Part shown: positions 5,265 through 31,462 of the stretch, piece after piece
Layout of the letters: every line of letters starts with the position of its first letter
Position numbering within the stretch: position 1 is the first letter of the stretch
NCBI GenBank assembly: GCA_938003855.1
Contig: CALKXD010000060.1
Location: 1-32,235, forward strand
DNA: 32,235 nucleotides
Source of the DNA: an uncultured Granulosicoccaceae bacterium
GTDB lineage: Bacteria; Pseudomonadota; Gammaproteobacteria; Granulosicoccales; Granulosicoccaceae
Direction of reading: 5' to 3'
Made by a program: the position numbers and the translations under genes
The notes under the pieces: model-generated
What the model was told of the DNA's origin: nothing
The model's input: the letters and a program-made list of their open reading frames with translations, nothing else
The model's database searches: none

Positions 5265-6809
5265 TCAGGCTTGACGGCGCTCGGACAACGGCCAGGAGTT
5301 CTCCACCTGATAGCTTTTCGCAGGGCCGGTATCCGGCAATCGGCTGTAGGTGCCTGCAAGCTCCCGAAGTCTGCCCGCCAGACCGTCGTCAATCTGTTCC
5401 CAGTCAAATCGCCATCGCCAGTTTCCCTCGGTCGTACCCGGCGTGTTCATGCGATGCCCCTGCCCGAGTCCCAGAACATCCTGCATTGGCACAATAGACG
5501 TTTGCGCCACAGACATCATGGCACTGCGAATCATCGGCCACGGCATTTCATCATCAGCACATTGATAGTAGCGCCGCACATGGTGTCGGGTTTGCTCATC
5601 CGCCAGGTGATACCACGATGTTGTTGTGTCGTTATCGTGGGTACCACTATAAGCCACCATATCAGCGCTGTGATTATGTGGCAGGTGATGATTATCGATG
5701 TCGCCATCGAAGGCAAACTGCAGCACCTTCATACCGGGTAGTGAAAACTGCTGACGGAGATCATCAACAGCCGAGGTTATAATGCCTAAATCCTCTGCCA
5801 CTAACGGTAGCTCACTGAAGTGCTTGTTAACCTGCTCCAGCAGCTCCGCTCCAGGTGCCTTTACCCAGCGCCCGTCTATGGCAGTAGGTGATTCAGCGGG
5901 AATTTCCCAGTACGATTCAAGTCCCCTGAAATGATCAATACGCACCAGATCAAACAGACTGAAGTGGGTGTGCAACCGATCCAGCCACCAGCCGAATCCA
6001 TCTGCTTTTAATTGTCCCCAGTTGTACAGGGGGTTTCCCCAGCGCTGCCCTTCAGCGGTAAACGCATCCGGGGGAACGCCGGCAACGACATCGCACTGAC
6101 CGTTGTCATCTACGGTAAAGTACTGTCGATTAGCCCAGACATCAGCGCTGTCACCGGATACGAAAATCGGCAGATCGCCAAACAAATAGACACCGTGCTC
6201 GTGGGCATAGTTACGCAACTGCCGCCACTGCACAAAAAATAGATACTGTTCAAACTTTCGAATCTGCAGGGCTCGGGAGCTATTCACCAACGCACTGTCC
6301 ACAGACTTTTTTACATTGCGCCGCAAGTCCTGTGGCCAATCAGACCAGGCACTGCCGCCGTGCATTTCTTTTAAAACAACGTATCGGGAGTAATCTTCCA
6401 GCCAGAAATTCTGGCCCCGGACAAATCGGGCGAAATCTTTGCGGGTGCCGGTATCCATGGTGTCGATTGCGGTATTGCAAGCGCGTTCAAGAGTAGCAAG
6501 ACGCCAGGCAACTGAATCCTCTGCATGGTCCCAGATATTGGCTTCCAGCCAACCCTTATCGACAAGCCAGTCAAGACTGATCAGCAGAGGGTTACCGGCA
6601 TGCGTCGACAGGCATTGATACGGACTTCCATCAGAGTGCGTGGGGCCCAGAGGCATTACCTGCCAGATGGTCTGACCGGCGGCGGCCAGAAATTCTACAA
6701 AGCGATAGGCACTGTGTGAAAAATCTCCCATACACCAGGGGCCCGGCAACGAAGTCGGATGAAGAAGCAGGCCGGTGCGGCGATGTGCGAGCGGGTTATG
6801 CAGTTTCAA
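5265..6809 (-). CDS. malQ: 4-alpha-glucanotransferase (amylomaltase, GH77)
   Basis: A 514-residue cytoplasmic disproportionating enzyme that transfers maltodextrin chains between acceptors and releases glucose. The GH77 signatures are clear. RRTGLLLHPTSLPG lies near the N-terminus (10-23). The nucleophile is Asp292 in VRIDHFRG, the acid/base Glu339 in LVAEDLG, and the stabilising Asp394 in SGTHDND. Length and spacing match the short Thermus-type amylomaltases rather than the longer E. coli MalQ. No ATG exists before the conserved N-terminal motif. TTG at 6809 is the most likely start, placing ten residues before the motif; an in-frame stop lies shortly upstream and the ribosome site is weak. 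It follows glgC on the same strand with an 80-base gap and ends at a terminator, so glgC-malQ probably form one operon. Confidence 0.93.
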   Translation of the reverse strand: MKLHNPLAHRRTGLLLHPTSLPGPWCMGDFSHSAYRFVEFLAAAGQTIWQVMPLGPTHSDGSPYQCLSTHAGNPLLISLDWLVDKGWLEANIWDHAEDSVAWRLATLERACNTAIDTMDTGTRKDFARFVRGQNFWLEDYSRYVVLKEMHGGSAWSDWPQDLRRNVKKSVDSALVNSSRALQIRKFEQYLFFVQWRQLRNYAHEHGVYLFGDLPIFVSGDSADVWANRQYFTVDDNGQCDVVAGVPPDAFTAEGQRWGNPLYNWGQLKADGFGWWLDRLHTHFSLFDLVRIDHFRGLESYWEIPAESPTAIDGRWVKAPGAELLEQVNKHFSELPLVAEDLGIITSAVDDLRQQFSLPGMKVLQFAFDGDIDNHHLPHNHSADMVAYSGTHDNDTTTSWYHLADEQTRHHVRRYYQCADDEMPWPMIRSAMMSVAQTSIVPMQDVLGLGQGHRMNTPGTTEGNWRWRFDWEQIDDGLAGRLRELAGTYSRLPDTGPAKSYQVENSWPLSERRQA

Positions 6810-6889
6810 AGTAGAGGCCGATTGAAAAATTCAAGAGTAGTTTTTTTGCAACGCTTGCCGCCAACGGCCGACCGCGTGTGCAGAGAACC

Positions 6890-8182
6890 CTACGCTATAC
6901 TGTGCAGGCTTTGCCCCAGCATATCAGGGGTGACCAATACTATCCCACCCGGACTGACACAAAATCGTTTCTGGTCAGCGACGGGGTCAACACCGATTGA
7001 GGTATTGTCGGGGATAATACACCCGCGATCCACAATGGCACGCTTGATATGACAGTTCTCGCCGATTACAACGTCTGGCATCACTACCGACTGATCAATC
7101 ACTGTGTGATCGGCTATCGTTACATTGGAGAACAGCAGCGATTCATTGACGGTAGCACCTGAAATAATGCAGCCGCCCGACACCAGAGAGTTAAATGCCG
7201 CGCCTTGCTTGTCAGCCGTGTTGTGGACAAACTTGGCCGGCGGCAGTTGCTCCTGATGCGTCCAGATAGGCCATTCTTTGTCGTACATGTTTAATTCTGG
7301 CAATACCCTGGTCAACTCGAGGTTGGCACCCCAGAAGGAGTCCAGTGTGCCCACGTCACGCCAGTAGCTCTGACCACCACTCTGCTTATCTAGAAAAGAA
7401 TATCCATAGACAGCACTGGTCGGGATCACTCTGGGTATGATGTCTTTACCAAAGTCATGGGTCGAGCCCTCCGTCACATTATCTTCTATCAGTTGCTTGC
7501 AGAGAAACTCCATGTCAAATATATATATTCCCATGGAAGCAAGAGACGTCCCCGGCTTATCGTGAAGCTCGGCCGGGTTCTCAGGTTTTTCGTTAAATTC
7601 TTCAACGCGTCCATCACTCGCCATACTCAGCACCCCGAACGATGACGCGTCTGCAACAGGCACTTCTATGCAGCCAATCGTCAGGTCGGAATGCTGCGCG
7701 ACGTGATAGGCCAGCATCGGTCCGTAATCCATTTTGTAGACATGGTCACCGGCAAGAATAATTACGTGCTTCGGGCCAAAGCTACGCATGATATCGATAT
7801 TCTGATACACCGCATCGGCTGTTCCCTTATACCAGGAGTTTTCATCGATACGCTGTTGCGCAGGCAGAAGCTCGACAAACGGCCCGAAATCACCGCCAAT
7901 CATGCCCCAGCCACGTTGTATATGACGGATCAGCGAATGCGCTTTGTACTGAGTCAATACACCAACCCGGCGGATACCCGAATTCAGACAGTTGGACAAG
8001 GGAAAATCAATAATTCGAAACTTACCACCGAACGGCACTGCGGGTTTGGCACGCCAATCGGTCAGATGCTCCAGCCGCGACCCTCGTCCCCCGGCAAGCA
8101 CCAAAGCGACCGTATCCCGCGTCAGCCGGCTGACGAATCGCCCGGCCGGTGTGGGATTCTGGTTGTACACATTTATTGTCAT
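6890..8182 (-). CDS. glgC: Glucose-1-phosphate adenylyltransferase (ADP-glucose pyrophosphorylase)
   Basis: A 430-residue enzyme that makes ADP-glucose from ATP and glucose-1-phosphate, the committed step of bacterial glycogen synthesis. The nucleotide-binding motif LAGGRGSRL (29-37), substrate-site RAKPAVPFGGKFRIIDF (44-60), catalytic Asp146 (LAGDHVYKMDYG) and Lys199 in FNEKP are intact; they correspond to E. coli Asp142 and Lys195. The C-terminal part is a left-handed beta-helix. The lysine that binds the activator fructose-1,6-bisphosphate in E. coli (Lys39) aligns with Trp43 here, so allosteric control may differ. The ATG at 8182 has only a weak ribosome site. It is divergent from glgB-glgA and upstream of malQ. 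Confidence 0.96.
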   Translation of the reverse strand: MTINVYNQNPTPAGRFVSRLTRDTVALVLAGGRGSRLEHLTDWRAKPAVPFGGKFRIIDFPLSNCLNSGIRRVGVLTQYKAHSLIRHIQRGWGMIGGDFGPFVELLPAQQRIDENSWYKGTADAVYQNIDIMRSFGPKHVIILAGDHVYKMDYGPMLAYHVAQHSDLTIGCIEVPVADASSFGVLSMASDGRVEEFNEKPENPAELHDKPGTSLASMGIYIFDMEFLCKQLIEDNVTEGSTHDFGKDIIPRVIPTSAVYGYSFLDKQSGGQSYWRDVGTLDSFWGANLELTRVLPELNMYDKEWPIWTHQEQLPPAKFVHNTADKQGAAFNSLVSGGCIISGATVNESLLFSNVTIADHTVIDQSVVMPDVVIGENCHIKRAIVDRGCIIPDNTSIGVDPVADQKRFCVSPGGIVLVTPDMLGQSLHSIA

Positions 8183-14676: not shown

Positions 14677-15936
14677 CTAGCCTGCACGGTAGACAGGAAA
14701 ACGACGGCAAAGTGCGGTCACTTTTTCACGCACTTCTGCGTTGACCGCCTCGTTATTTATGTCATCCAGTACGTCGCACATCCAACCCGCCAGATCACTC
14801 ATTTCCTGCTCTTTGAATCCACGTGTTGTGGCCGCCGGAGACCCGATGCGCAAGCCACTGGTCACAAACGGCGATTGCGGATCCTTTGGCACGGTATTTT
14901 TATTCACAGTGATGTGGGCTCGACCCAGTGCGGCATCCGCCTCTTTACCGGTCAGCCCCTTATCGATCAGATCGAGTAAAAACAAATGATCGTCGGTACC
15001 GTTTGAAACTATCTTATAACCGCGCTGCTGAAATACCGAGCACATCGCTCGGGCATTATCGAGCACCTGCTGCTGATAGGCTTTGAATTCCGGCGCCATT
15101 GCTTCCTTGAAGGCTACCGCTTTTCCAGCGATCACATGCATCAGCGGCCCGCCCTGCATACCGGGGAAAATATTGGAATTGAATTTCTTTTCAAGCTCGG
15201 GGTTGGCGCGCGCGAGAATCATTCCACCACGCGGACCACGCAGTGTTTTATGCGTGGTCGTGGTGACTACGTCCGCAATCGGTACCGGGTTCGGGTACAA
15301 ACCCACCGCAACCAGGCCGGCAACATGCGCCATATCAACCAGCAAATAGGCGCCCACTTCGTCGGCGATATCGCGGAATTTCTGCCAGTCTATAATTTTC
15401 GAGTAGGCAGAAAACCCCGCCACGATCATCTTTGGCTTATGCTCACGGGCAAGGGTTGCTACCTGGTCGTAGTCTATTTCGCCGGTCTCTTCTTCAAGAC
15501 CATATTGCACGGCACTGTAGATTTTACCGGAGAAATTCACGCTGGCACCGTGTGTCAGGTGACCCCCGTGATCCAATGACATACCAAGCACAACATCACC
15601 GGGCTTGCACAAGGCCATGTATACAGCAGCATTTGCCTGCGAGCCGGAATGCGGCTGCACATTGGCGTAGTCGGCACCAAACAACTGTTTAGCGCGATCA
15701 ATGGCCAGCTGCTCAGCGACATCGACAAATTCACAGCCACCGTAATAACGTTTCGACGGATAGCCTTCAGCGTACTTGTTTGTCAGCACGGACCCTTGAG
15801 CCTCAAGGACGCGCGGGCTGGTGTAATTTTCAGAGGCGATCAACTCGACATGATCTTCCTGACGCGCAACCTCCTGCTGCATGGCTTGCCATAACTCATC
15901 GTCAAAGCCGGCAATTTTTTCGTCACTTTTAAACAT
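14677..15936 (-). CDS. glyA: Serine hydroxymethyltransferase
   Basis: A 419-residue PLP enzyme that interconverts serine and glycine with tetrahydrofolate, the main source of one-carbon units. The PLP lysine is Lys230 in [15 protein letters not shown], next to the position in E. coli (Lys229). Other signatures are [24 protein letters not shown] and [12 protein letters not shown]. The start is ATG at 15936, behind GGAGAG at proper spacing; two upstream TTG codons in frame are less likely. It lies 66 bases downstream of cobT on the same strand. A stepped hairpin covers the cobT end in that gap. Confidence 0.97.
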
Positions 15937-18955: not shown

Positions 18956-19942
18956 CTACATGGCTTTATCAATCACCATATGAGTCCATGCGCCTTCCGG
19001 TGCTTTGGAAATAACAGGGTCTGAACCTCCGGATAATAGTGTATTCACGGTCCTTTCGTAATCTTCCGGATCAAGTTTTCCGTCAGAACCTGAGGTGAGC
19101 TTGTTGATTTCACCCATCATTCTGCGCTGATGCCTCTCAGTTTGCGCACCTGACGCATCGTTTTCAAGCACGATATCCGCAGCCTCATCAGGATTCTCGC
19201 GGGCAAATTCCCAACCTTTCATCGATGCGCGGACAAATCTTGCCGCTTTGTCGACAAAAGCAGCATCTTCGAGATTCTTCTCAAGAACATAAAGGCCATC
19301 TTCCATTGTCGACACTCCTTGCTCTTCGTACTTAAAAACCAACAGATCATCTGCGGGAATTCCTGCATCAATTATCTGCCAGTACTCGTTGTAGGTCATG
19401 GTGGACACACAATCCGCTTGCTTTTGCAGAATCGGGTCAACGTTAAAACCTTGCTTGAGCACCGTAACACCACCTTCGCTGCCGTCGGTGGCCAACTCCA
19501 GTTTTGCCATCCAGGTCAGGAAGGGGTACTCGTTACCGTAATACCAAACGCCAAGGGTTTTATCGACAAAATCATCCGGCGAGGTGATTCCGGTGTCCTT
19601 GCGGCAGGTCAGCATCATCCCTGAACGCTTGAATGGCTGGGCTATATTTACCAGCGCCACGCCTTTTTCGCGACTGGCCAGCGCAGAAGGCATCCAGTCA
19701 ACCACAACATCCGCACCACCACCGGCGATAACTTGCGGCGGAGCGATATCCGGCCCACCGGGTTTGATTGTGACATTGAGGTCCTCCTCATCATAGAAAC
19801 CCTTGTCCTTGGCGACGTAGTAGCCGGCAAATTGCGCCTGCGTTACCCACTTGAGTTGCAGTGTGAAGTCGTCCTTTGCGTGTGCGAAGCCACTCAACAA
19901 ACCAACACCAAGTGCGCCTGCAGTAATCAACATCTTTTTCAT
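18956..19942 (-). CDS. NMT1/THI5-family ABC transporter substrate-binding protein
   Basis: A 328-residue periplasmic binding protein with a signal peptide (cleavage after HA, residue 22). The mature start, FTLQLKWVTQAQFAGYYVAKDKGFY, is the classic NMT1/THI5 signature, seen in thiamine-precursor (hydroxymethylpyrimidine), riboflavin and aromatic-ring binding proteins. An aromatic cluster (WVTQAQFAGYY, VVDWMPSA, LGVWYYGNEYPFLTW) could stack on a flat ring. Start ATG at 19942 follows GGAGAG; an open frame upstream is not used. It is the last gene of a seven-gene operon with a pyrimidine-catabolic enzyme set, so uracil, thymine, a dihydropyrimidine or a related compound is the inferred ligand. 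Thiamine pyrimidine remains possible, although no thi gene is nearby. Confidence 0.88.
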   Translation of the reverse strand: MKKMLITAGALGVGLLSGFAHAKDDFTLQLKWVTQAQFAGYYVAKDKGFYDEEDLNVTIKPGGPDIAPPQVIAGGGADVVVDWMPSALASREKGVALVNIAQPFKRSGMMLTCRKDTGITSPDDFVDKTLGVWYYGNEYPFLTWMAKLELATDGSEGGVTVLKQGFNVDPILQKQADCVSTMTYNEYWQIIDAGIPADDLLVFKYEEQGVSTMEDGLYVLEKNLEDAAFVDKAARFVRASMKGWEFARENPDEAADIVLENDASGAQTERHQRRMMGEINKLTSGSDGKLDPEDYERTVNTLLSGGSDPVISKAPEGAWTHMVIDKAM

Positions 19943-19956
19943 CGATAACTCTCCGA

Positions 19957-21120
19957 CTAGTTGCGAAACGATGGATGCCAAAACGTAAACATCCGCTCCA
20001 ATAAAGCAATAACCCCGTAGAACATTGACCCGGCCAGTGCAGCGACAGCAATCTCGGCCCATACCATATCCACATTCATTCGCCCGACTTCAGTGGATAT
20101 TCTGAAGCCCATACCAACGATCGGTGTACCAAAAAATTCCGCCACAATTGCGCCGATCAGCGCCAGCGTAGAATTTATTTTCAGGGCATTGAAGATAAAC
20201 GGCAACGCCTGCGGCAGACGCAGCTTGAACAACGACTGCCAGTAGCTCGACCCGTAGGTTTTCATGAGATCCGCTTGCATCGCACTCGACGCAGACAAGC
20301 CGGTAACGGTATTCACCAACATCGGGAAAAACGTCATGATTACTACCACCGCCGCTTTAGATGGCCAGTCAAAACCGAACCACATCACCATGATGGGCGC
20401 GATACCCACCACCGGCAACGCCGATACCAGGTTGCCAATCGGCAGCAATCCACGCTTTAGAAAGCTCGAGCGGTCAATCAGCAGAGCCACCAGTAAACCG
20501 GCACCACAACCCATGGCATAACCAATTAATACTGCTTTTAAAAAAGTCTGCTTAAAGTCTACCCACAGTGTGGCCGTCGACGATACAAATCGCTGCGCTA
20601 TCGCGCTCGGTGCCGGCAGCAATACCTGAGGTACATTGAAGCCACGCGTGCAGATCTCCCAGATAATCAGCAGCCATGCACCAAACGCCAGCGGTATCAG
20701 CACTCTGAGCGCCCACTTCAGCATACTGTTGCGCGAATCAACCATCGAGAGTCGCTCGATGCACAACCACCCTAGCGCCCAGGCAGCAACAACAGCAGCC
20801 CAGAATCCCGTCCCGGGGTGGATACTGTCGAGTGACTCAATCAGTACAAAAGCACCAGAAAAAGAGACCAGGCCAGTCGCCAGTGCCCACCACAACTGCC
20901 GTTTGTCCAGCAACGCGTTTGGTACCAGCCAACTCACGACCAGGAGCAACGCCAGGCCACAAAACAGCAGTATCGATAGCGTCGGTGTTGCTTCGCTCGA
21001 AACCGCTGCGAGACTGCTATGCAGCGGCAGGATAATACTGGCCAGAGCGGCCACACCAGCAAGCAACAGCAGCGCGCGCTGCAGAAGGGTCAACCCCATT
21101 GCGGGTACGGCGGTATTCAT
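19957..21120 (-). CDS. ABC transporter permease with extra N-terminal membrane segments
   Basis: A 387-residue inner-membrane permease. The C-terminal 250 residues are a standard binding-protein-dependent transport domain with the coupling (EAA-like) loop YGSSYWQSLFKLRLPQALPF and SALPVVGIAPIMVMWFG. About 130 residues before it hold roughly four additional hydrophobic segments not found in the usual permease of this type. Its ATG overlaps the end of the preceding permease gene by four bases (ATGA), showing tight translational coupling. It pairs with that permease to form the channel of the importer. The function of the N-terminal part is unknown. Confidence 0.9.
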   Translation of the reverse strand: MNTAVPAMGLTLLQRALLLLAGVAALASIILPLHSSLAAVSSEATPTLSILLFCGLALLLVVSWLVPNALLDKRQLWWALATGLVSFSGAFVLIESLDSIHPGTGFWAAVVAAWALGWLCIERLSMVDSRNSMLKWALRVLIPLAFGAWLLIIWEICTRGFNVPQVLLPAPSAIAQRFVSSTATLWVDFKQTFLKAVLIGYAMGCGAGLLVALLIDRSSFLKRGLLPIGNLVSALPVVGIAPIMVMWFGFDWPSKAAVVVIMTFFPMLVNTVTGLSASSAMQADLMKTYGSSYWQSLFKLRLPQALPFIFNALKINSTLALIGAIVAEFFGTPIVGMGFRISTEVGRMNVDMVWAEIAVAALAGSMFYGVIALLERMFTFWHPSFRN

Positions 21121-22010
21121 TTCGCCATCCCCATGCGATCGAGCACCAGACGATTGGCCATACTGACCAGTGCTACCAGGGACGCTGCCAGAATCGACGC
21201 CATTACCAGCGCGGACCAGATCTGCACCGTCTGTCCATAGTACGAACCAGCCAGCAATCGGGCACCGAGACCTGCCACCGCACCAGTAGGTAATTCACCA
21301 ACAATGGCCCCGACCATAGATATGGCTATGGCGATCTTCATACTGGTAAACAAATACGGAACCGACGCCGGCAATCGCAGCTTCCACAGTGTTTGCCACG
21401 CTGAAGCACTGTACGTGTGCATCAGGTCAATGTGACTGCTGTCCGGTGAACGCAACCCTTTGACCATGCCCACCGCAACCGGAAAAAAACTCAAATAGGT
21501 CGAGATAAACGCTTTCGGCAGCAGCCCTTGAATACCCACCGAGTTAAGTACCACAATGATCATCGGTGCAATGGCAAGTATGGGAATAGTCTGCGAAGCG
21601 ATAATCCACGGCATCAGGCTTTTATCCAACGCACGGTTGTGCACAATCCCCACGGCCAGCAGCACGCCAAGCACCGTACCGAGAAAAAAACCCAATAAGG
21701 CGGTAGACAGTGTGATCCACGAATGAAATACCAGACTACGCTTGGAGGTGATTTTTTTCTGTACCGTTGTTTTATAGATTTCCTGCCCGACCTGGTGCGG
21801 AGCCGGCAATACCGGCCGCTCCTGATTTAAGGTATCGCCTACCAGGGTTGTGAACGATACGTTGTCGAGCTTGGCGCGCTGGTAGATATCGCGTTGAAAG
21901 GGTGTATTAAGCAGCACAGCTGACGCATACCAGACAACCAGCAACACCATAAGCACGACAACCACCGGCCAGACCCGCTGATAACTCTGCGACAGACGAC
22001 CCGGTCTCAT
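21117..22010 (-). CDS. ABC transporter permease
   Basis: A 297-residue inner-membrane permease of the nitrate/sulfonate/pyrimidine-precursor type. An N-terminal membrane segment (about 14-33) precedes an extended periplasmic region (34-95), then five or more helices with the coupling loop YSASAWQTLWKLRLPASVPY and IASQTIPILAIAPMIIV. It is 24 bases downstream of the ATPase gene and overlaps the next permease by four bases. Together they are predicted to import the substrate that the downstream-encoded binding protein captures. Confidence 0.9.
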   Translation of the reverse strand: MRPGRLSQSYQRVWPVVVVLMVLLVVWYASAVLLNTPFQRDIYQRAKLDNVSFTTLVGDTLNQERPVLPAPHQVGQEIYKTTVQKKITSKRSLVFHSWITLSTALLGFFLGTVLGVLLAVGIVHNRALDKSLMPWIIASQTIPILAIAPMIIVVLNSVGIQGLLPKAFISTYLSFFPVAVGMVKGLRSPDSSHIDLMHTYSASAWQTLWKLRLPASVPYLFTSMKIAIAISMVGAIVGELPTGAVAGLGARLLAGSYYGQTVQIWSALVMASILAASLVALVSMANRLVLDRMGMAK

Positions 22011-22034
22011 TCTGGCGACACCCGTGCTATACCT

Positions 22035-22877
22035 CTAGCCTTCATAGCTGTGCCCTTGTCGCAACCCCTCTCGCACCCGGTGTGCAATATCTAGAAACTC
22101 CGGTGTTTCACGGATATCCAGATCACGATCTCGCGGCAGACTAGTGTCAATCACATCGATAATGCGTCCGGGACGGGGTGACATCACCACGATACGAGTT
22201 GACAGAAACACCGCTTCCGGTATCGAGTGCGTTACGAACACCACTGTTTTGCTGGTTTTATCCCATAATTTAAGCAATTGCTCATTGAGATGATCACGCA
22301 CTATTTCATCAAGCGCCCCGAACGGTTCATCCATCAGCAGCAATGCCGGTTCAACCGCTAAGGCACGCGCAATTGAAGCGCGCTGTTGCATGCCTCCCGA
22401 CAACTGCCAGGGAAACTTTTTCGCAAAGCCCGCCAGATTGACAAGCTCTAGGTTACGCTGCACGCGTTCACGCCGCTCACTTCTGGAAAGCCCCATAATT
22501 TCCAGCGGCAGTGCTACGTTGCGTGCAATATTGCGCCACGGATACAACGATGCTGCCTGAAAAACATAACCATAAGCGCGATTCAATCGTGCTTCGTGCG
22601 CGCTGACGCCGTTAACGGTAATGCTGCCATCGGTAGGCTGCTCCAGATCGGCGATCACCCGCAGCAGGGTTGTCTTACCGCAACCCGATGGCCCGATAAA
22701 AGAGACAAAGTCCCCCGCACCAACGCTGAGGTTAACCTCGGATAGCGCATGCACAGGACCATCGCCGGTCTCGAAGGTCAGGGACAAATTTTGCGCATCA
22801 ATGACGCACTCATTGCCAGCCACCGTCGCGCTGGCCAGTGGCTTGGCCGGGCTTACTGATTGATCGGTCTCAGGCAT
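22035..22877 (-). CDS. ABC transporter ATP-binding protein
   Basis: A 280-residue ATPase that drives the importer. Walker A GPSGCGKTT, the Q-loop at YGYVFQ, signature LSGGMQQR, Walker B LLLMDEPF and the switch histidine in FVTHSIPEA are all present. It belongs to the TauB/SsuB/ThiZ-like group that partners NMT1-type binding proteins. The start is ATG at 22877, which shares its A with the TGA of the dihydropyrimidinase gene (TGATG). That overlap joins the enzyme and transport parts of the operon into one translation unit. An open frame reaching 22943 is not needed. Confidence 0.93.
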   Translation of the reverse strand: MPETDQSVSPAKPLASATVAGNECVIDAQNLSLTFETGDGPVHALSEVNLSVGAGDFVSFIGPSGCGKTTLLRVIADLEQPTDGSITVNGVSAHEARLNRAYGYVFQAASLYPWRNIARNVALPLEIMGLSRSERRERVQRNLELVNLAGFAKKFPWQLSGGMQQRASIARALAVEPALLLMDEPFGALDEIVRDHLNEQLLKLWDKTSKTVVFVTHSIPEAVFLSTRIVVMSPRPGRIIDVIDTSLPRDRDLDIRETPEFLDIAHRVREGLRQGHSYEG

Positions 22878-24331
22878 CAGACCCCGGCCGGCATGTTGGC
22901 CGGATCGCGCACTACAGCTCTCGGTGCAGTCAACTCCTTCCACTGAGACAGTGCTTTATTTACGGCTGGATAGGCATCCCGGGGAACAAACCTGCCATGG
23001 CCTTCCTGCGCATTGACAGAGTCCTCCGTAACCGCCACAACTCCGCGGGTCAGGGTAAAGCGCGGCAAGCCCGTCACCTCTATCCCTTCAAACACGTTGT
23101 AGTCAATGGCCGACTGCTGCTTGTCTGCCGTAATCGTCTTACTGCGAACCGGATCCCAGACGATGAGGTCAGCATCGGCCCCTACCATCACCGCACCCTT
23201 TTTCGGATACATGTTGAGAATCTTTGCAATATTAGTGGAGGTAACCGCGACAAATTCATTCAGAGTCAGCCGCCCGGTGGTGACCCCTTTTGTCCACAAC
23301 ACCGGCAGTCGATCTTCCAGACCACCGGTACCATTCGGAATTTTAGTGAAGTCGCCGAGACCGAAACGCTTTTGCTCTGTCGTGAATGCACAATGATCCG
23401 TGGCGACCACCTGCAAGCTACCCGCCTGCAAGCCCGCCCATAGACCATCCTGGTGCTCTTTACTGCGGAACGGCGGCGACATCACCCGACGTGCCGAATG
23501 ATCCCAGTCTTTATTGAAGTATTCACTTTCATCAAGCGTCAAATGCTGCACCAGCGGCTCACCATAAACACGCATGCCTTTCTGTCTGGCCCGGCGAATG
23601 GCTTCATGCGCCTGCTCACAGGACACATGTACTATGTACAGCGGCACGCCTGCCATATCGGCAATCATGATCGCGCGATTAGCAGCTTCACCCTCGACTT
23701 CCGGCGGACGCGAGTAGGCATGTCCTTCAGGCCCGTTATTGCCTTCAGCCATCAACTTTGCCTGCAGCTGCGCAACAACATCACCGTTCTCAGCATGCAC
23801 CAGCGGCATTGCACCCAATGCGGCGCATCGTTGGAACGATGAGAACATTTCATCGTCATCAACCATCAGTGCACCCTTGTAGGCGAGAAAGTGTTTGAAG
23901 GTATTAATGCCACTGTCTACCACAGTCGCCATTTCGTTGAAGACCTGTTCACTCCACCAGGTAATGGCCATATGGAAGGAATAATCACACGATGCCTTGG
24001 AGGTTTTGTTGTCCCACATCTGCCGCGCCTCGAGCAGCGATTGGCCCGGTGACGGCAGACAGAAATCCACAACCGTTGTCGTTCCGCCGGACAAAGCAGC
24101 GCGGGTTCCTGACTCAAAATCATCGGAGGAGTACGTGCCCATAAACGGCATTTCAAGATGGGTGTGCGGATCAATCCCACCGGGCATTACATAACAACCG
24201 TCCGCATCCAGCGTCTCGCTGCCGGTAAGATTCTCACCGATCTGACTAATACGCCCGCCTTCGATCAACACATCAGATTTATACGTTAAATCTGCGGTAA
24301 CAATGGTGCCACCCTTGATTACTGTCGACAT
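22877..24331 (-). CDS. hydA: Dihydropyrimidinase (D-hydantoinase family)
   Basis: A 484-residue amidohydrolase that opens 5,6-dihydrouracil or dihydrothymine to the N-carbamoyl-beta-amino acid, the second step of reductive pyrimidine breakdown. The two-zinc site is complete: His56 and His58 (GGIDPHTHLE), the carbamylated Lys152 (FLAYKG), His179 (LVHAENGD), His235 (YIVHVSCEQ) and Asp312 (VATDHCAF). Length fits dihydropyrimidinases. ATG at 24331 follows GGGAGA at good spacing. The gene sits 11 bases after the ureidopropionase gene and overlaps the ATPase gene by one base. Hydantoinase activity is common in the family, but the neighbouring PreTA genes favour the pyrimidine role. Confidence 0.95.
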   Translation of the reverse strand: MSTVIKGGTIVTADLTYKSDVLIEGGRISQIGENLTGSETLDADGCYVMPGGIDPHTHLEMPFMGTYSSDDFESGTRAALSGGTTTVVDFCLPSPGQSLLEARQMWDNKTSKASCDYSFHMAITWWSEQVFNEMATVVDSGINTFKHFLAYKGALMVDDDEMFSSFQRCAALGAMPLVHAENGDVVAQLQAKLMAEGNNGPEGHAYSRPPEVEGEAANRAIMIADMAGVPLYIVHVSCEQAHEAIRRARQKGMRVYGEPLVQHLTLDESEYFNKDWDHSARRVMSPPFRSKEHQDGLWAGLQAGSLQVVATDHCAFTTEQKRFGLGDFTKIPNGTGGLEDRLPVLWTKGVTTGRLTLNEFVAVTSTNIAKILNMYPKKGAVMVGADADLIVWDPVRSKTITADKQQSAIDYNVFEGIEVTGLPRFTLTRGVVAVTEDSVNAQEGHGRFVPRDAYPAVNKALSQWKELTAPRAVVRDPANMPAGV

Positions 24332-24342
24332 GAGTTTTCTCC

Positions 24343-25590
24343 CTAAGAGACAATTTCAGCGGTTTCAACAACCGCATGGAAAAGTACATTGGTCCCTGCA
24401 GCTGCCCACTGCGGGGTGATTTCTTCCGCTTCATTGTGGGACAAACCATCAACACAGGGGCACATCACCATAGCGGTGGGTGCAACGTGGTTTATCCAAC
24501 AGGCATCGTGACCGGCACCGGACACCAGATCACGGTGGCTATAGCCCAAACGCCCTGCGGCATTACGCACTGCGTCCACACAGCCGGCGTCAAATTCAAC
24601 CGGATCAAAGCCACCGACCTGTTCTATTTCCAGACCCAGTCCCATCTGTTGACAAATTTTTTCGGCACCGGCCCGCAGTCGCGCTTCCATATCGGCAATG
24701 GTTTCTTTAAGCGGGTGTCGAAAATCGATAGTAAACACCACCCGCCCCGGAATAATGTTGCGTGAGTTGGGGTAGACATCGCAGTGGCCTATGGCACCGA
24801 CAGCATCGGGAGCATGGCTCCAGGCGATGTCGTCAACTAGCTGGGTAATTTTCGCCATACCCAAACCAGCGTTACAGCGCATCGGCATCGGTGTGGAGCC
24901 AGTGTGACTTTCCTTGCCGGTAACGGTGACTTCCAGCCACTTCAGGCCCTGCCCGTGAGTGACCACACCAACTTCTTTATTTTCTTTTTCGAGAATCGGC
25001 CCCTGCTCTATATGCAGCTCGAAAAACGCTTTCATTTTACGCGCACCAACTTCTTCATCACCGAGCCAGCCAATCCGTTTTAATTCATCGCCCAGCTTGC
25101 AGCCCTCGGAGTCTTCACGATCATAGGCCCACTGCAATGTATGGACACCGGCAAATACACCGGACGCAACCATCGCCGGTGCAAAGCGGGAACCCTCTTC
25201 ATTGGTCCAGTTAACCACCACAATCGGGTGTCGGGTTTTAACCTTCATCTCATTAAGTTGCCTGACAATTTCAAGCCCGCTCAGCACCCCCAGGACGCCA
25301 TCGTATTTACCCCCGGTAGGCTGGGTATCCAAATGACTGCCGACATAAACCGGCAAGGCGTCCGGATCGGTTCCCGCGCGGGTGGCAAACATGGTCCCCA
25401 TCTGATCGACCGCCATGGACATGCCCGCAGATTCACACCACTGCTGAAACAATTCACGGCCTTTCGCATCGTCATCGGTGAGGGTTTGCCGGTTGTTGCC
25501 ACCGGCAATACCCGGCCCTATCTTCGCCATCTCCATGAGCGACTCCCACAATCGCTCACTGTTAATCTTCATATTGCTTGAAATTATCAC
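24343..25590 (-). CDS. Beta-ureidopropionase / N-carbamoyl-amino-acid hydrolase (M20 type)
   Basis: A 415-residue zinc amidohydrolase of the M20 AmaB/HyuC/AllC group. In this setting it should hydrolyse N-carbamoyl-beta-alanine to beta-alanine, CO2 and ammonia, the third step of the Pyd pathway. Metal-binding elements are GSHLDTQPTGGKYDGVLG, NEEGSRF, ELHIEQGP and the late VDGLSHNEAE; NSRNIIPG is the dimer-arm substrate motif. Allantoate amidohydrolases share this pattern, so the exact substrate rests on neighbours. The start is uncertain: GTG at 25590 has AGGAAG five bases upstream, while ATG at 25572 and GTG at 25626 are also in frame. It lies between the aminotransferase and dihydropyrimidinase genes in one operon. 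Confidence 0.88.
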   Translation of the reverse strand: MIISSNMKINSERLWESLMEMAKIGPGIAGGNNRQTLTDDDAKGRELFQQWCESAGMSMAVDQMGTMFATRAGTDPDALPVYVGSHLDTQPTGGKYDGVLGVLSGLEIVRQLNEMKVKTRHPIVVVNWTNEEGSRFAPAMVASGVFAGVHTLQWAYDREDSEGCKLGDELKRIGWLGDEEVGARKMKAFFELHIEQGPILEKENKEVGVVTHGQGLKWLEVTVTGKESHTGSTPMPMRCNAGLGMAKITQLVDDIAWSHAPDAVGAIGHCDVYPNSRNIIPGRVVFTIDFRHPLKETIADMEARLRAGAEKICQQMGLGLEIEQVGGFDPVEFDAGCVDAVRNAAGRLGYSHRDLVSGAGHDACWINHVAPTAMVMCPCVDGLSHNEAEEITPQWAAAGTNVLFHAVVETAEIVS

Positions 25591-25637
25591 TGTATCTTCC
25601 TGGCTTTTACCAACGGCGACTGTCACGTGGTTAACGA

Positions 25638-26963
25638 TCAGTCGAGTGTTTTCAGAACGCTTTTAAGAACGTCAAAAATTTCATCGATCTGGGATTTTTC
25701 AATAATCAACGGCGGAGACAATGCGATGATATCCCCGGTGGTTCGAATCAACAGATCTTTCTCAAAAGCCTTTAAAAACGCTGTAAATGCACGCTTTGTG
25801 GGCTCACCAGCTATCGGGTCAAGCTCGATCGCCCCGATCAACCCGTAGTTGCGGATATCAATCACATGCGGCAAGCCTTTCAGTGAGTGCAGCGCGTCTT
25901 CCCAATAGCCAGCCAGGTCCGCTGCACGCGCAAACAGATTTTCTTCGCGATAAGTCTCAAGGGTGGCCAATGCGGCTGCACTGGCAATCGGATTGCCGGA
26001 GTAGGTGTAACCGTGAAAAAACTCAATCAGATGCTCGGGACCGGTCATGAACGCATCGTGTATGTCGTCGCGAACAAACACTGCGCCCATCGGAATCACG
26101 CCACTGGTCAGGCCTTTAGCGGTGGTGATGATGTCTGGAACCACTCCGAATACATCGGGTGAAAAGGCCCCACCCATGCGTCCAAAACCAGTAATCACTT
26201 CATCGAAAATCAGCAAAATTCCGTGCTTGTCGCAGATTTCGCGCAATCGCTGCAAATAGCCTTTAGGCGGCATCAGCACACCCGTTGACCCTGCCATCGG
26301 CTCGACGATCACCGCTGCAATTGTCGAGGCATCATGCAACGCAACTATGCGCTCAAGATCATCGGCGAACTCAACGCCGTGCTCCGGCAGTCCGCGGGTA
26401 AATGCGTTGCGTTGGATATCGTGCGTGTGCTGCATGTGGTCAACGCCACCGAGCAACGTGCCAAACATTTTGCGGTTGGAAACAATGCCACCAACCGATA
26501 TCCCGCCGAAATTTACCCCGTGGTAGCCGCGTTCGCGGCCGATCAATCTTGTGCGACTGCCGTCGCCTTTGACACGGTGGTAGGCAATCGCCATTTTCAG
26601 AGCGGTTTCTACTGACTCTGAACCGGAGTTGGTAAAAAACACATGATTCATAGATTCCGGGGCTATTTCGGCCAGTGCCGTGGCGAGTTCAAATACTTTC
26701 GGATGACCCAGCTGGAACGCTGGCGCGTAGTCGAGTTCCGCTACCTGCTGCTGCACCGCCTCGATGATTCTGGGGCGGCCGTGGCCCGCATTGCAACACC
26801 ACAGACCGGCCGTGCCATCGAGTACCTGACGCCCATCGTCCGTCGTGTAATGCATGTCTTTCGCGGCAACAAACATCCGTGGTGTCTGCTTAAACTGACG
26901 GTTGGCCGTAAATGGCATCCAGAAAGCGTCCAGATTATTCGGCCGTGAATTGTTTTTACCCAT
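25638..26963 (-). CDS. Omega-amino acid (beta-alanine):pyruvate aminotransferase, class III
   Basis: A 441-residue PLP aminotransferase. The PLP lysine is Lys283 (ITTAKGLTSG). LIFDEVITGFGR (251-262) holds the cofactor aspartate, and TNSGSESVETALK (111-123) binds phosphate. The N-terminal FWMPFTANRQFKQTPR and GLWCCNAGHGRPRI match the beta-alanine:pyruvate transaminases of Pseudomonas. It would convert beta-alanine (or 3-aminoisobutyrate) plus pyruvate to malonate semialdehyde (or its methyl form) plus alanine, closing the pyrimidine pathway. It is the first gene of the seven-gene operon. Its ribosome site (GAGAG, seven bases before ATG) lies inside a predicted leader hairpin. No semialdehyde dehydrogenase gene is in the window. 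Confidence 0.93.
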   Translation of the reverse strand: MGKNNSRPNNLDAFWMPFTANRQFKQTPRMFVAAKDMHYTTDDGRQVLDGTAGLWCCNAGHGRPRIIEAVQQQVAELDYAPAFQLGHPKVFELATALAEIAPESMNHVFFTNSGSESVETALKMAIAYHRVKGDGSRTRLIGRERGYHGVNFGGISVGGIVSNRKMFGTLLGGVDHMQHTHDIQRNAFTRGLPEHGVEFADDLERIVALHDASTIAAVIVEPMAGSTGVLMPPKGYLQRLREICDKHGILLIFDEVITGFGRMGGAFSPDVFGVVPDIITTAKGLTSGVIPMGAVFVRDDIHDAFMTGPEHLIEFFHGYTYSGNPIASAAALATLETYREENLFARAADLAGYWEDALHSLKGLPHVIDIRNYGLIGAIELDPIAGEPTKRAFTAFLKAFEKDLLIRTTGDIIALSPPLIIEKSQIDEIFDVLKSVLKTLD

Positions 26964-27034: not shown

Positions 27035-27077
27035 CCGCCCGAAGGGTCGAGAGTCCACGCTATCCTAGCCCGGCCCA

Positions 27078-27737
27078 ATGGTCAACGGTATGACAACAAA
27101 CAGAACAACAAAGACATCCGCTGCAAAATCACCCGAAAAAAAATCGCGAATTCAGGTGCAAAACCGCCAACGCATCATCGATGCGGCGCTGGAGGTGTTT
27201 TCCAGCTACGGCTTCCGCGGCAGCACCGTGGCACAAATAAGCGATAGCGCTGCTATGTCCAAAGCCAACGTTCTGTACTACTACAAAACCAAGCAAGCTA
27301 TATACATCGCACTACTGGAACACACGCTGGTTGAATGGCTCGACCCACTCACCGACATTGACCCCGCAGGAGATCCCGCCGAGGAACTGTGGTCTTACGC
27401 ACGTTCAAAACTTGAACTGTCAAAAGCATCACCAGAAGCCTCTCGATTGTTTGCCAATGAAATACTCCAAGGCGCACCGATGATCAGGAATTTTCTGGAG
27501 AACGACTTGAAAGAGCTGGTCACCAGCAAGTGCCGGGTCATCCAGACATGGATAGACGAAGGTAAACTGGCACCGGTTTCGCCGTTGCATCTGATTTTTT
27601 TCATCTGGGCATCCACCCAGCACTATGCCGACTTCAGCGTACAGACAGAAATTCTTTGTGACTCGCCTGACTCAATATTTAATGATGCAGAGCAAACATT
27701 GAAAACGTTGTTACTCAACGGTCTGCTGCCTCGATAA
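27078..27737 (+). CDS. RutR-like TetR-family regulator
   Basis: A 219-residue TetR-type repressor resembling E. coli RutR, which senses uracil and thymine. After a basic tail, the helix-turn-helix runs from about 31 to 78 (IIDAALEVFSSYGFRGSTV, then MSKANVLYYYKTKQAIYIALL). The ligand domain keeps RutR hallmarks: EASRLFANEILQGAP, KLAPVSPLHLIFFIWASTQHYADF and the final LLNGLLPR. These match RutR closely, so a uracil- or thymine-responsive repressor of the surrounding operons is a strong inference. ATG at 27078 overlaps a TGGTCAA half-site; ATG at 27090 is an alternative. The gene is divergent from the aminotransferase operon and converges on preA with 16 bases between. Confidence 0.9.
   Translation: MVNGMTTNRTTKTSAAKSPEKKSRIQVQNRQRIIDAALEVFSSYGFRGSTVAQISDSAAMSKANVLYYYKTKQAIYIALLEHTLVEWLDPLTDIDPAGDPAEELWSYARSKLELSKASPEASRLFANEILQGAPMIRNFLENDLKELVTSKCRVIQTWIDEGKLAPVSPLHLIFFIWASTQHYADFSVQTEILCDSPDSIFNDAEQTLKTLLLNGLLPR
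27079..27085 (+). promoter_or_regulatory. RutR-type half-site at the start of the tetR gene
   Basis: TGGTCAA equals one arm of the E. coli RutR consensus (TTGACCA-N2-TGGTCAA). The other arm is poor here (three of seven). A related left arm, TTAACCA, lies at 26994-27000. On the minus strand this half-site reads TTGACCA, resembling a -35 element. Confidence 0.35.
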
Positions 27738-27753
27738 CCACTACTGCGTTTCA

Positions 27754-29052
27754 TCAGGACCCGGACATAGGATTGTTCGCATGCGTTGTCCAGTTGGCGT
27801 ACTCCCGTCGAATATCATTTTCGGTACGCGGATCTACGCCTGTTGTCAGCTCTTCCATAGTGATGCAATCCTCCACCGGGCAGACACTGACGCATAAATT
27901 GCAACCCACGCATTCTTCATCGATTACTTCAAAATGACGCTTGCCATCGACTTTAAGCGTTATCGCCTGATGGGAAGTATCTTCACAGACAACATGGCAA
28001 CGCCCGCACTGTATGCATTTATCCTGATCAATACGTGCTTTGGTGACATAATTTAAATTCAGGTATTGCCAGTCAGTGACATTGGGTGTGGCTTTACCCA
28101 CAACACTATCGAGCGTGGCGTGGCCTTTCTCGTCCATCCAGTTATTCAAACCGCTGATCATCTCGTCAACGACACGGAATCCATACGTCATGGCTGCCGT
28201 GCACACCTGCACGTTACCGGCACCCAGCGCCATGAATTCAGCAGCATCGCGCCAGGTGGTAACACCGCCAATGCCAGAAATAGGTATGTCAGCGGTTTCG
28301 GCGTCACGTGCTATGTCCGCCACCATATTAAGTGCTATTGGCTTGACCGCCGGGCCACAGTAGCCGCCGTGTGAGCCCTTGCCATCTATAGTCGGTTGCG
28401 GGGCCATTGTGTCGAGGTCTACGCTGACAATAGAACTTACCGTATTAATCAGTGACACAGCATCAGCACCACCCGCTTTTGCCGCGCGGGCGGGAAACCG
28501 GATATCGGTAATATTCGGGGTAAGCTTAACGATCACCGGCAGGTCGGTCGTCTCTTTGCACCAGCGGGTAACCATCTCGATATACTCAGGCACCTGCCCG
28601 ACGGCCGCCCCCATGCCGCGCTCCGACATACCGTGCGGACAGCCGAAGTTAAGCTCCACACCATCAGCACCGGTGTCTTCCACGCGCTTTAAAATTCCTT
28701 TCCAGTTTTTTTCTTCGCAAGGCACCATTAACGACACCACCATCGCTCGATCCGGCCAGTCGCGCTTAACCTGCCGGATCTCGGCAAGATTAACCTCTAA
28801 CGGTCGATCGGTAATCAGTTCGATATTATTCAACCCGATCAAACGACGATCGGCCGAGTGCACTGCCCCGTAGCGAGGACCGTTCACGTTAACGATGGGC
28901 GGGTCTTCTCCCAGGGTTTTCCAAACCACCCCGCCCCAGCCCGCTTCAAAGGCCCGGTTCACATTAAACGCCTTGTCGGTCGGCGGCGCAGAAGCCAGCC
29001 AAAACGGATTGGGCGATTTAATGCCCACAAAATTGTTGCTGAGATCAGCCAT
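27754..29052 (-). CDS. preA: NAD-dependent dihydropyrimidine dehydrogenase, catalytic subunit PreA
   Basis: A 432-residue flavoprotein subunit that reduces uracil and thymine to the 5,6-dihydro forms together with PreT. The FMN-binding TIM barrel holds the substrate loop NFGCPHGMSERGMGAAVGQ, with the likely proton-donor Cys138. Other signatures are LASAPPTDKAFNVNRAFEAGWGG and GIGGVTTWRDAAEF. The C-terminus carries two 4Fe-4S clusters (CIQCGRCHVVC and CVGCNLCVSVCPVEDC). The start is ATG at 29052 behind CGGGA; ten upstream codons are not expected. It follows preT by 68 bases on the same strand. Size and layout match E. coli PreA (about 410). Confidence 0.96.
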   Translation of the reverse strand: MADLSNNFVGIKSPNPFWLASAPPTDKAFNVNRAFEAGWGGVVWKTLGEDPPIVNVNGPRYGAVHSADRRLIGLNNIELITDRPLEVNLAEIRQVKRDWPDRAMVVSLMVPCEEKNWKGILKRVEDTGADGVELNFGCPHGMSERGMGAAVGQVPEYIEMVTRWCKETTDLPVIVKLTPNITDIRFPARAAKAGGADAVSLINTVSSIVSVDLDTMAPQPTIDGKGSHGGYCGPAVKPIALNMVADIARDAETADIPISGIGGVTTWRDAAEFMALGAGNVQVCTAAMTYGFRVVDEMISGLNNWMDEKGHATLDSVVGKATPNVTDWQYLNLNYVTKARIDQDKCIQCGRCHVVCEDTSHQAITLKVDGKRHFEVIDEECVGCNLCVSVCPVEDCITMEELTTGVDPRTENDIRREYANWTTHANNPMSGS

Positions 29053-29120: not shown

Positions 29121-30434
29121 CTAGGCACTGATCGCTCGATGGATAGATTCCGCTGCCAGCTTGCCATCCTGCACCGCCGCCACCGTTAAATCTTCGCCAC
29201 CACTGATACAGTCTCCGCCCGCCCAGACCTTCTGATGGCCGGTTCGGTAAGCGCTATCGACCGTCACTCGGTTTGCACCCGACTCGATGACGGTACTGGC
29301 TAGCTGCCCGGCCAGCAGAGTTTGTCCGATGGCCATATAGATGGTGTCAGCCTCGATCTGTATTTTTTCACCGGTCCCTTGCAGCTCGCCACTGACGCTG
29401 CTGGTATATTCGAGTTCAATTGAACCAACAGCACCGCTGGCGTCCGAATGAATTTCTACCGGCTGCAGATAGTGCTTGATCTTCACCCCGTTGATCTGAG
29501 CTAGTTCCTGCTCATAGCGGCTGGCGTTCATCGCATCAGCACCTCTGCGATAGGCAATGGTGACATCTTCTGCACCAAGCATACGGGCTTGTACTGCGGC
29601 GTCGATGGCAGTCATTCCGCCTCCGATAATCACCACCTTACGGCCAACCTGCAGGGAGTCGTAGTCCGTTGTTTGCCGGAGCCTGGCAATAAACTCCACG
29701 GCGTTCTCAACACCAGCCAAATCACTACCGGGCAGCCCGGCCTGATTCACACCATCCAGACCAAGACCTAGAAACACGGCATCGTACTGATCTATCAACT
29801 CATCGAGCATCACATCCGACCCGACACGAACACTGTTTTTCAAGGTTATGCCACCAACAGAAAGTACAAAATCAACTTCTCGCCGGGCAAAATTCTCAAC
29901 CGTTTTGTAGGTCGCAATACCATACTCATTCAGACCACCGGGCTTGCTTTTCGCGTCGAGCATGGTGACTCGATGACCGTAAGTCGCGAGCCTGTGGGCA
30001 CAAGCAAGACCCGCGGGCCCGGCACCGACGACACACACCTGCTTACCACTGTCGCTGCCTTGTTGATAGGGATGTTCGACGTCACCCAGAAAATGGTCCG
30101 TGGCAAAACGCTGCAATTGACCGATTTTGACTGGTTTCGATTCAGCGGTCTGGCGCACGCAGGCCTGTTCGCACAGGGTTTCCGTGGGACAGACACGGGC
30201 ACACATTCCGCCAAGTATATTTTCATCAAATATGGTTTTTGCCGCCCCGGCCCGGTTTCCAGCCTGTATCTGGCGGATAAACAGCGGCACGTCAATGCCA
30301 GTGGGACAAGCGGTCACGCAGGGGGCGTCGTAGCAGAAGTAGCATCGATCAGACTCGACGCTGGCCTCATGCCGGCTGAGGGCTGGGTGTAAATCGGTCT
30401 CGAGCCCGGGATACGCCTTTTCATCTTGCTGCAT
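29121..30434 (-). CDS. preT: NAD-dependent dihydropyrimidine dehydrogenase, electron-transfer subunit PreT
   Basis: A 437-residue FAD and iron-sulfur subunit that passes electrons from NADH to PreA. Eight N-terminal cysteines in two groups (31, 34, 39, 43 and 78, 82, 88, 92) hold 4Fe-4S clusters. The FAD fold has GAGPAGLACA (137-146), and an NADH fold has IIGGGMTAIDAA near 275. It resembles the GltD-like half of mammalian DPD. ATG at 30434 has an excellent ribosome site (GAGGAA, six bases before). It is the first gene of preT-preA, with a promoter and a RutR-like operator visible upstream. Confidence 0.95.
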   Translation of the reverse strand: MQQDEKAYPGLETDLHPALSRHEASVESDRCYFCYDAPCVTACPTGIDVPLFIRQIQAGNRAGAAKTIFDENILGGMCARVCPTETLCEQACVRQTAESKPVKIGQLQRFATDHFLGDVEHPYQQGSDSGKQVCVVGAGPAGLACAHRLATYGHRVTMLDAKSKPGGLNEYGIATYKTVENFARREVDFVLSVGGITLKNSVRVGSDVMLDELIDQYDAVFLGLGLDGVNQAGLPGSDLAGVENAVEFIARLRQTTDYDSLQVGRKVVIIGGGMTAIDAAVQARMLGAEDVTIAYRRGADAMNASRYEQELAQINGVKIKHYLQPVEIHSDASGAVGSIELEYTSSVSGELQGTGEKIQIEADTIYMAIGQTLLAGQLASTVIESGANRVTVDSAYRTGHQKVWAGGDCISGGEDLTVAAVQDGKLAAESIHRAISA

Positions 30435-30452
30435 CAGTGTTCCTCAACGACC

Positions 30453-30469
30453 ATGCTTGCCTCAAGCAT
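30453..30469. promoter_or_regulatory. Palindrome overlapping the preT -10
   Basis: ATGCTTG and CAAGCAT form a perfect 7+7 inverted repeat with a 3-base centre, covering the predicted -10 and start site of preT. It does not resemble a RutR site and could bind a second regulator, or form a short hairpin in the leader. Confidence 0.4.
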
Positions 30470-30494
30470 AAACATTTTTTATCCGATTGGTCAA
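30465..30494 (-). promoter_or_regulatory. Predicted preT promoter
   Basis: On the minus strand TTGACC (30494-30489) and TATGCT (30470-30465) are 18 bases apart, matching five and four consensus bases of six. Initiation would fall near 30458, leaving a leader of about 24 bases. Confidence 0.5.
30479..30494. promoter_or_regulatory. RutR-like operator over the preT -35
   Basis: TTATCCGATTGGTCAA matches 11 of the 14 specified bases of the E. coli RutR consensus TTGACCA-N2-TGGTCAA, with one arm perfect. It covers the predicted -35 of preT, which suits repression by the RutR-like protein encoded at 27078-27737. Confidence 0.55.
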
Positions 30495-30537
30495 ATAATC
30501 ATGATCGGACAGCGTCGAATGGTCGATCAGAGCAGTG

Positions 30538-30567
30538 TTGTCATAGCGGGCAGACTGCTACTATACC
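30538..30567 (+). promoter_or_regulatory. Predicted promoter of the fold-type IV aminotransferase
   Basis: TTGTCA (30538-30543) and TATACC (30562-30567) are 18 bases apart, with five and four consensus matches of six. Initiation near 30574 would give a leader of about 28 bases before the ATG at 30602. Confidence 0.4.
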
Positions 30568-30601
30568 GCTCTTGATTCACTCCATAATTCAGAGGCAGAA
30601 A

Positions 30602-31462
30602 ATGGCGGTCGGCGAGACAATTTTTACCTACTTCAAAGGCAAGTGGGAGAAAGGCAATACCCCGATTATGGGTGCAGCCGACCATGGCACATGGCTGGGC
30701 ACACTGGTTTTTGACGGCGCGCGCAAATTCAACGGCAAAACGCCGGACCTGGATAGCCATTGTGAACGTGCAAATGAATCTGCGCTGGCCATGGGCTTGA
30801 AGCCCGGCCTGACTACTGAGCAAATGGTCGACATTGCGCTCGATGGGCTGAGCAACTACGCCGACGATGCGACTGTCTATATCCGCCCCATGTACTGGTC
30901 GCGCGAGTCGGGCCCGTCAGTGGTTGGCGGCGATCCTGACTCGACCGAGTTTTGCATGTGTCTGGAAGACGTACCCATGCCTGACGCAGATGCCAGCATG
31001 ACGCTCGGCACTACCCGTTTTTGCCGCCCCATGCTGAGCATGCAGCTTGTCAATGCCAAAGCGGCCTGCCTGTACCCGCACAACGCGCGCATGCTGCGTG
31101 AGGTCAATGCCAACGGTTTCAAGAACGCCATCGTCTGCGATGCCCTGGGCAACGTGGCGGAGACCGCAACCTCTAATCTGATGATGGCGTGCGACGGCGA
31201 AATATTCACCCCCGCGCCGAACGGCACCTTCCTAAACGGCATCACCCGCAAACGCTTCACACATTTGCTTCAGGACGCCGGAAAAGTCGTCCACGAGACT
31301 ACCCTGACGCTTGATGATTTCCGCCAGGCCGATGAGATATTCGCAACCGGTAATATCGCTAAAATCACGCCGGTAACACAGCTTGAGGACAAGCACCTGC
31401 AAGCAGGGCCAATCGCCAGAATGTGTCGTGAGTTGTATTGGGACTGGGCAGCCAGCGAGTAG
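30602..31462 (+). CDS. Fold-type IV PLP aminotransferase (branched-chain/D-amino-acid type)
   Basis: A 286-residue member of the BCAT/D-alanine aminotransferase/ADC-lyase superfamily. The PLP lysine is probably Lys153 (LVNAKAACLYPHN), and the cofactor-binding glutamate is Glu187 in LGNVAETATSN. FLNGITRKRF and FATGNIAKITPV are late motifs of the fold. It is shorter than E. coli IlvE (309), and its substrate side-loop does not identify the substrate, so branched-chain, D-amino-acid or another omega-amino-acid use are all possible. ATG at 30602 follows AGAGG; an open frame upstream to 30437 has no family similarity. It is divergent from preT and shares its control region, so a link to beta-amino-acid metabolism is possible but unproven. 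Confidence 0.85.
   Translation: MAVGETIFTYFKGKWEKGNTPIMGAADHGTWLGTLVFDGARKFNGKTPDLDSHCERANESALAMGLKPGLTTEQMVDIALDGLSNYADDATVYIRPMYWSRESGPSVVGGDPDSTEFCMCLEDVPMPDADASMTLGTTRFCRPMLSMQLVNAKAACLYPHNARMLREVNANGFKNAIVCDALGNVAETATSNLMMACDGEIFTPAPNGTFLNGITRKRFTHLLQDAGKVVHETTLTLDDFRQADEIFATGNIAKITPVTQLEDKHLQAGPIARMCRELYWDWAASE

Follow-up and report, generated by a model that had tools for sequence, protein, structure and literature searches.

The window, by which we mean the whole stretch of 32,235 nucleotides analysed here, comes from an uncultured Granulosicoccaceae bacterium. Judged by its predicted gene products it carries a reductive pyrimidine catabolism cluster (Table 1), and this gene cluster is kept in most of the 36 regions fetched from relatives (L052-L087). 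The ABC transporter is probably a pyrimidine uptake system, the substrate being read from the gene neighbourhood.

Table 1. Annotated and predicted features of the pyrimidine catabolism locus, in window coordinates
Feature	Position	Strand	Basis or detail
ABC transporter genes	18956-22943	-	ATPase 22035-22943; permeases 21117-22010 and 19957-21120; substrate-binding protein 18956-20062
Dihydropyrimidinase	22877-24331	-	TIGR02033, 599 bits, above cutoff
Amidohydrolase, allantoate/ureidopropionase (hydantoinase-carbamoylase) family	24343-25626	-	NF006769 and TIGR01879, above cutoff
Omega-aminotransferase (AptA type), probable beta-alanine step	25638-26963	-	NF052567, 763 bits, above cutoff
Degenerate rutR operator (predicted)	27070-27085	+	CCGGCCCAATGGTCAA, 10/14, TGGTCAA arm perfect; relatives up to 14/14 there
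rutR-like TetR-family regulator (PydR-like)	27078-27737	+	TIGR03613, E 6e-66, 222 bits; E. coli RutR structures
preA, NAD-dependent dihydropyrimidine dehydrogenase subunit	27754-29052	-	NF006183, 742 bits, cutoff 335
preT, FAD/NAD-linked dihydropyrimidine dehydrogenase subunit	29121-30434	-	Named by position beside preA; family matches GltD-like
-10 of preT	30465-30470	-	TATGCT, 18-bp spacer from the -35
RutR operator of preT (predicted)	30479-30494	-	TTGACCAATCGGATAA, 11/14, 44 bp 5' of the preT start
-35 of preT	30489-30494	-	TTGACC, first six bases of the perfect operator arm; relatives align alike
Branched-chain aminotransferase-like gene (PRK13356), divergent	30602-31462	+	Profile match

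The similarity of the window regulator to RutR extends over the full length of the TIGR03613 model (positions 1-202 of 202), and its best solved relatives are the E. coli RutR structures 6z1b and 3loc. Since the NCBIfam equivalog model for RutR requires 368 bits and the protein reaches 222, it is better called RutR-like or PydR-like. In E. coli RutR, according to the accessible part of PMC10891134, K52 and K62 belong to the DNA-binding motif, while W77, Y97, W167, Q171 and Q179 hold uracil. All seven residues are identical in the window protein and are kept in nearly all relatives; in the recognition helix, T53 of the E. coli protein is replaced by A in the window protein and by A or P among the relatives. 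The closest named RutR match was found in the Bugula neritina symbiont AB1 (84% identity), followed by uncultured Granulosicoccus. Four genomes of the window's own genus (L083-L086) encode a more distant RutR of 45-48% identity; at their preT sites TTTACCA replaces TTGACCA, and three of the four sites end in TCAA.

The RutR operator consensus we take to be the 16-bp palindrome TTGACCAnnTGGTCAA. Positions 30479-30494 read TTATCCGATTGGTCAA on the + strand and TTGACCAATCGGATAA on the strand of preT, and comparison with TTGACCANNTGGTCAA gave 3 mismatches, that is 11/14, the TGGTCAA arm being perfect. The earlier note had counted 11 of the 14 specified bases and one perfect arm, which proved exact on rereading. 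It had also set the site on the best -35 of preT-preA. The promoter scan of 30300-30700 yielded one promoter-like site only, on the minus strand (9/12, 18-bp spacer), and since the scan places the start of TTGACC at 30494, the perfect arm of the operator contains the -35 hexamer, in agreement with that claim. By its location, overlapping the -35 and the spacer of preT-preA, the site belongs to a pyrimidine catabolic operon. By its letters it falls among the RutR-type palindromes, with 11/14 in the window and 10-13/14 in 29 relatives; the literature, in the portions accessible, words the RutR site as an 'approximately 16 bp palindromic sequence'. At 30453-30469 a hairpin with a 7-bp stem (ATGCTTG, loop CCT, CAAGCAT), flagged as terminator-like on the + strand, lies over the preT -10 region.

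The preT start could be located in 29 of the 36 fetched regions; L058, L062, L063, L069, L077, L081 and L087, where it is cut off or missing from the locus, were left out of the preT count. All 29 readable relatives, which are not independent of one another, have a RutR match at preT, the best score being 13 in seven, 12 in twenty, 11 in one and 10 in one. Their operator is found 27-81 bp 5' of where preT is projected to begin, and it persists in relatives whose fetched region is without a PRK13356-type gene. In the alignment, which is anchored on the consensus itself, 13 of the 14 specified columns hold 1.28-2.0 bits and one holds 0.48, and the columns beyond the promoter block mostly 0-0.3 bits. 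An unanchored check was provided by counting 7-mers with no use of the E. coli motif: TGGTCAA, on either strand, was the top shared 7-mer, present in 27 of 30 preT regions and 20 of 34 rutR regions. The spacer-side arm (TGG..AA), for which a promoter would have no use, is conserved as well. The window copy ranks among the three weakest of the 30 preT sites.

The conserved order in the site-anchored alignment of the relatives is an A-rich flank, TTGACCA, two free bases, TGGAWAA, AAATTG and TTTAAT. The -10 of preT is mostly TTTAAT in the relatives, with a 17-bp spacer and TG in front. As predicted from these letters, the conserved block is an extended -10 promoter overlaid by the operator.

Matches as good as that of the window copy are not rare. 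The window itself has 6 places as good as 30479-30494 (shuffle mean 1.47), and a search of the whole genome (6,835,285 bases) gave 563 at three or fewer mismatches; the reversed pattern, used as control, gave 410. In the 167-bp intergenic region that holds the operator, chance alone would give about 0.013 of them, and when the preT region of the window was put through 300 dinucleotide shuffles, a score of 11 was reached in 2. Because 563 genome places are as good or better, the single-sequence match is only suggestive, and the E. coli consensus alone was dropped as evidence for the site. The earlier note had named many equal or better matches at random genome positions as the outcome that would speak against its reading; with the E. 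coli consensus this outcome is literally what was obtained. The strict preT form TTGACCANNTGGAWAA, at one mismatch or fewer, occurs at 6 places in the window's genome, the preT site being the sole one outside a long open frame. With a matrix made from 16 distinct sites of the relatives, the window excluded, the window site scored 22.1 bits (the relatives 16.2-25.6) and was the top score of the window, ahead by 6.6 bits.

In the 48 family genomes the strict form was found at 27 places in 25 genomes, and its reversed control at 6. Nineteen of the 27 places lie at the preT of fetched loci, one is a coding place in the window's genome, and one further place, in G019, was found upstream of preA, on its contig and strand and about 1.45 kb away from it; 6 make up the remainder. 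In the Fisher comparison, which counts G000 through its coding match at C14, the strict form was present in 24 of 36 genomes with rutR versus 1 of 12 without it.

Among the matches listed, at least 50 genome places score 12-13/14, and more 12/14 places are possible. The context was checked for 28 of these 50. Every one of the 28 falls in a frame free of stops, which has at least 155 codons in 27 cases and 63 in one (L015), thus the context check revealed no second regulon member among them. Intragenic binding of RutR is known in E. coli. Since E. coli RutR binds within genes, the coding matches may still be active.

The upstream region of rutR was compared in 34 cases, with lengths from 88 to 1959 bases. 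The best score there was 14/14 in 13 regions, 13 in 4, 12 in 1 and 11 in 3, the other 13 regions staying at 10 or below. Many of these rutR operators lie directly 3' of a conserved ctatcgta element, and the CCGGCCCAATGGTCAA of the window is found at the same place. Two RutR-like sites 34 bp apart were seen upstream of rutR in L054 (13/14 and 11/14) and in L056 (11/14 and 14/14), which suggests paired operators or two start points. L063 (G017) has tandem RutR-like genes at 6829-8117, 59% and 37% identical to that of the window, and in the same locus a perfect operator adjoins aptA.

In the family the distribution of the regulator follows that of preA, although several of the comparisons given here draw on related genomes and do not count as independent events. 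Of the 95 genomes searched for a RutR-like protein, 36 encode one, and these include the genome of the window. Of the 48 family genomes 36 have preA, and they are the same 36 that have rutR; the other 12 are without either. At the threshold used, 6 of 276 class genomes have preA, again with the window's own among them, and when the regions of the other five were examined, two were found to carry rutR together with sites. One of these genomes, G220, belongs to another family; besides rutR it has a site of 14/14 at preT and one of 13/14 upstream of an amidohydrolase operon. In the other, G094, the rutR is distant and a 12/14 site lies 5' of an aminotransferase gene. In the fetched regions of G199, G115 and G060, which contain no rutR, no site of 12 or more was found. 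The loci L048-L051 encode RutR relatives and gave no match to preT or preA; of these four, L050 (Microbulbifer aggregans) alone has sites scoring at least 12, namely a 13/14 site, TTGACCAAAAGGTCAA, at 5871, about 3 kb from the RutR relative, and a 12/14 site at 5278. In L092, from a distant genome that encodes a RutR relative, several overlapping repeats of the TGACTAA/TTGACCA type precede an aminotransferase gene at 15440-15600.

We consider it highly probable, on the evidence of the compared sequences, that the RutR-like repressor, the product of 27078-27737, controls preT-preA through 30479-30494 as its operator, and that uracil releases it. A RutR dimer would sit on the imperfect palindrome with one arm over the -35 hexamer and the other within the promoter spacer, and since the arms cover the -35 and the spacer, bound RutR would exclude RNA polymerase. 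Uracil would be sensed in the conserved pocket, RutR would leave the DNA and the reductive breakdown of uracil would be switched on. Directly observed were the sequence and its conservation, the overlap with the promoter, the joint occurrence of regulator and target and the conserved contact and pocket residues; binding by RutR, repression of preT and the role of uracil as effector are what we infer from them. Some features weigh against this reading, namely the low scores of the two window copies, the frequency of 11/14 matches in the genome, the RutR score below the equivalog cutoff and the A at the place of T53. The assignment to RutR had been made in the earlier note from the match to the E. 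coli consensus; the 11/14 score is insufficient for it alone, and it now stands on the conservation at preT (29/29), the palindromes at rutR, the copy in G220, the joint occurrence of rutR and preA and the residues of the uracil pocket.

It is also conceivable, though unlikely, that the operator is real in the family and that the window copy has decayed (11/14 at preT, 10/14 at rutR), so that repression is weak or lost in this organism. The nearest relative has 12/14 at preT and 11/14 at rutR, other relatives reach 14/14, and at position 10 the window and L083, alone among the 30 regions, have C instead of T. However, on the matrix of the relatives the window site stays inside their range and leads all other places in the window, and the residues of the window RutR are intact. 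The best site in the E. coli rutA/rutR intergenic region, which was taken as the functional site by assumption, likewise scores 11/14.

That TTGACC is merely a -35 hexamer and its likeness to an operator accidental seems very improbable to us. The hexamer does align as a -35, at 17-18 bp spacing with a conserved extended -10 next to it, and 11/14 matches are common across the genome, but in the arm on the spacer side the T, the GG and the closing AA hold 1.65-2.0 bits, which an ordinary spacer would not show, and perfect palindromes occur at rutR. Against accident stands, moreover, that where the left arm is TTTACC, as in four relatives, three of the right arms end in TCAA. Use of the palindrome by another repressor with a similar half-site, of the TetR family or otherwise, can practically be set aside, for although the window regulator lies below the RutR equivalog cutoff, rutR is situated within the cluster, its own promoter bears the same palindrome in many relatives, and regulator and preA are jointly present or absent in 48 of 48 genomes.

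If RutR is the repressor, the form of the preT operator may carry a further meaning, which we put forward tentatively and with considerable doubt. The preT site, composed of an arm that is both -35 and half-site and of TGGAWAA instead of TGGTCAA, would be purposely asymmetric compared with the perfect palindromes at rutR in many genomes, so that preT would be released at lower uracil than rutR, the species of the window standing further down this scale.

A weak single-sequence match has in this way been turned into a family-wide prediction, namely that in Granulosicoccaceae the reductive pathway is under uracil control of the RutR type, and the prediction specifies the regulator, the operator and the promoter geometry. 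The predicted operator arm that doubles as the -35 makes a clean example. Leyn et al. (2016, PMC5343134) predicted RutR regulons of pyrimidine catabolism for 13 taxonomic groups of Proteobacteria, in 68 genomes altogether, and the accessible part of that work reports taxon-specific changes of the RutR motif; no mention of Granulosicoccaceae was found in the portion of its main text that was available. The literature search, with subscription journals mostly outside its reach, brought up no work on Granulosicoccus that deals with RutR or with regulation by uracil.

Two known systems invite comparison. With E. coli RutR and its operator between rutA-G and rutR the system of the window shares, as far as the accessible part of PMC10891134 describes it, the TetR subfamily, the 16-bp palindrome, the residues of the uracil pocket and a regulator gene located beside catabolic genes. 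The targets differ: in E. coli they are the Rut pathway and carAB, whereas those predicted in the window are the reductive preT-preA genes. In this respect the closer parallel is PydR of Pseudomonas putida, reported as a RutR-like repressor of dihydropyrimidine dehydrogenase (Hidese et al. 2012, as cited in the accessible text of PMC7332683). Since PydR was already known, RutR-type control of the reductive pathway is, as far as that text goes, not new in kind. The P. putida system belongs to another lineage and is likened to ours by its regulator and pathway, not by the sequence of its operator; the logic, a RutR-like repressor placed over the reductive pyrimidine pathway, would be the same in both.
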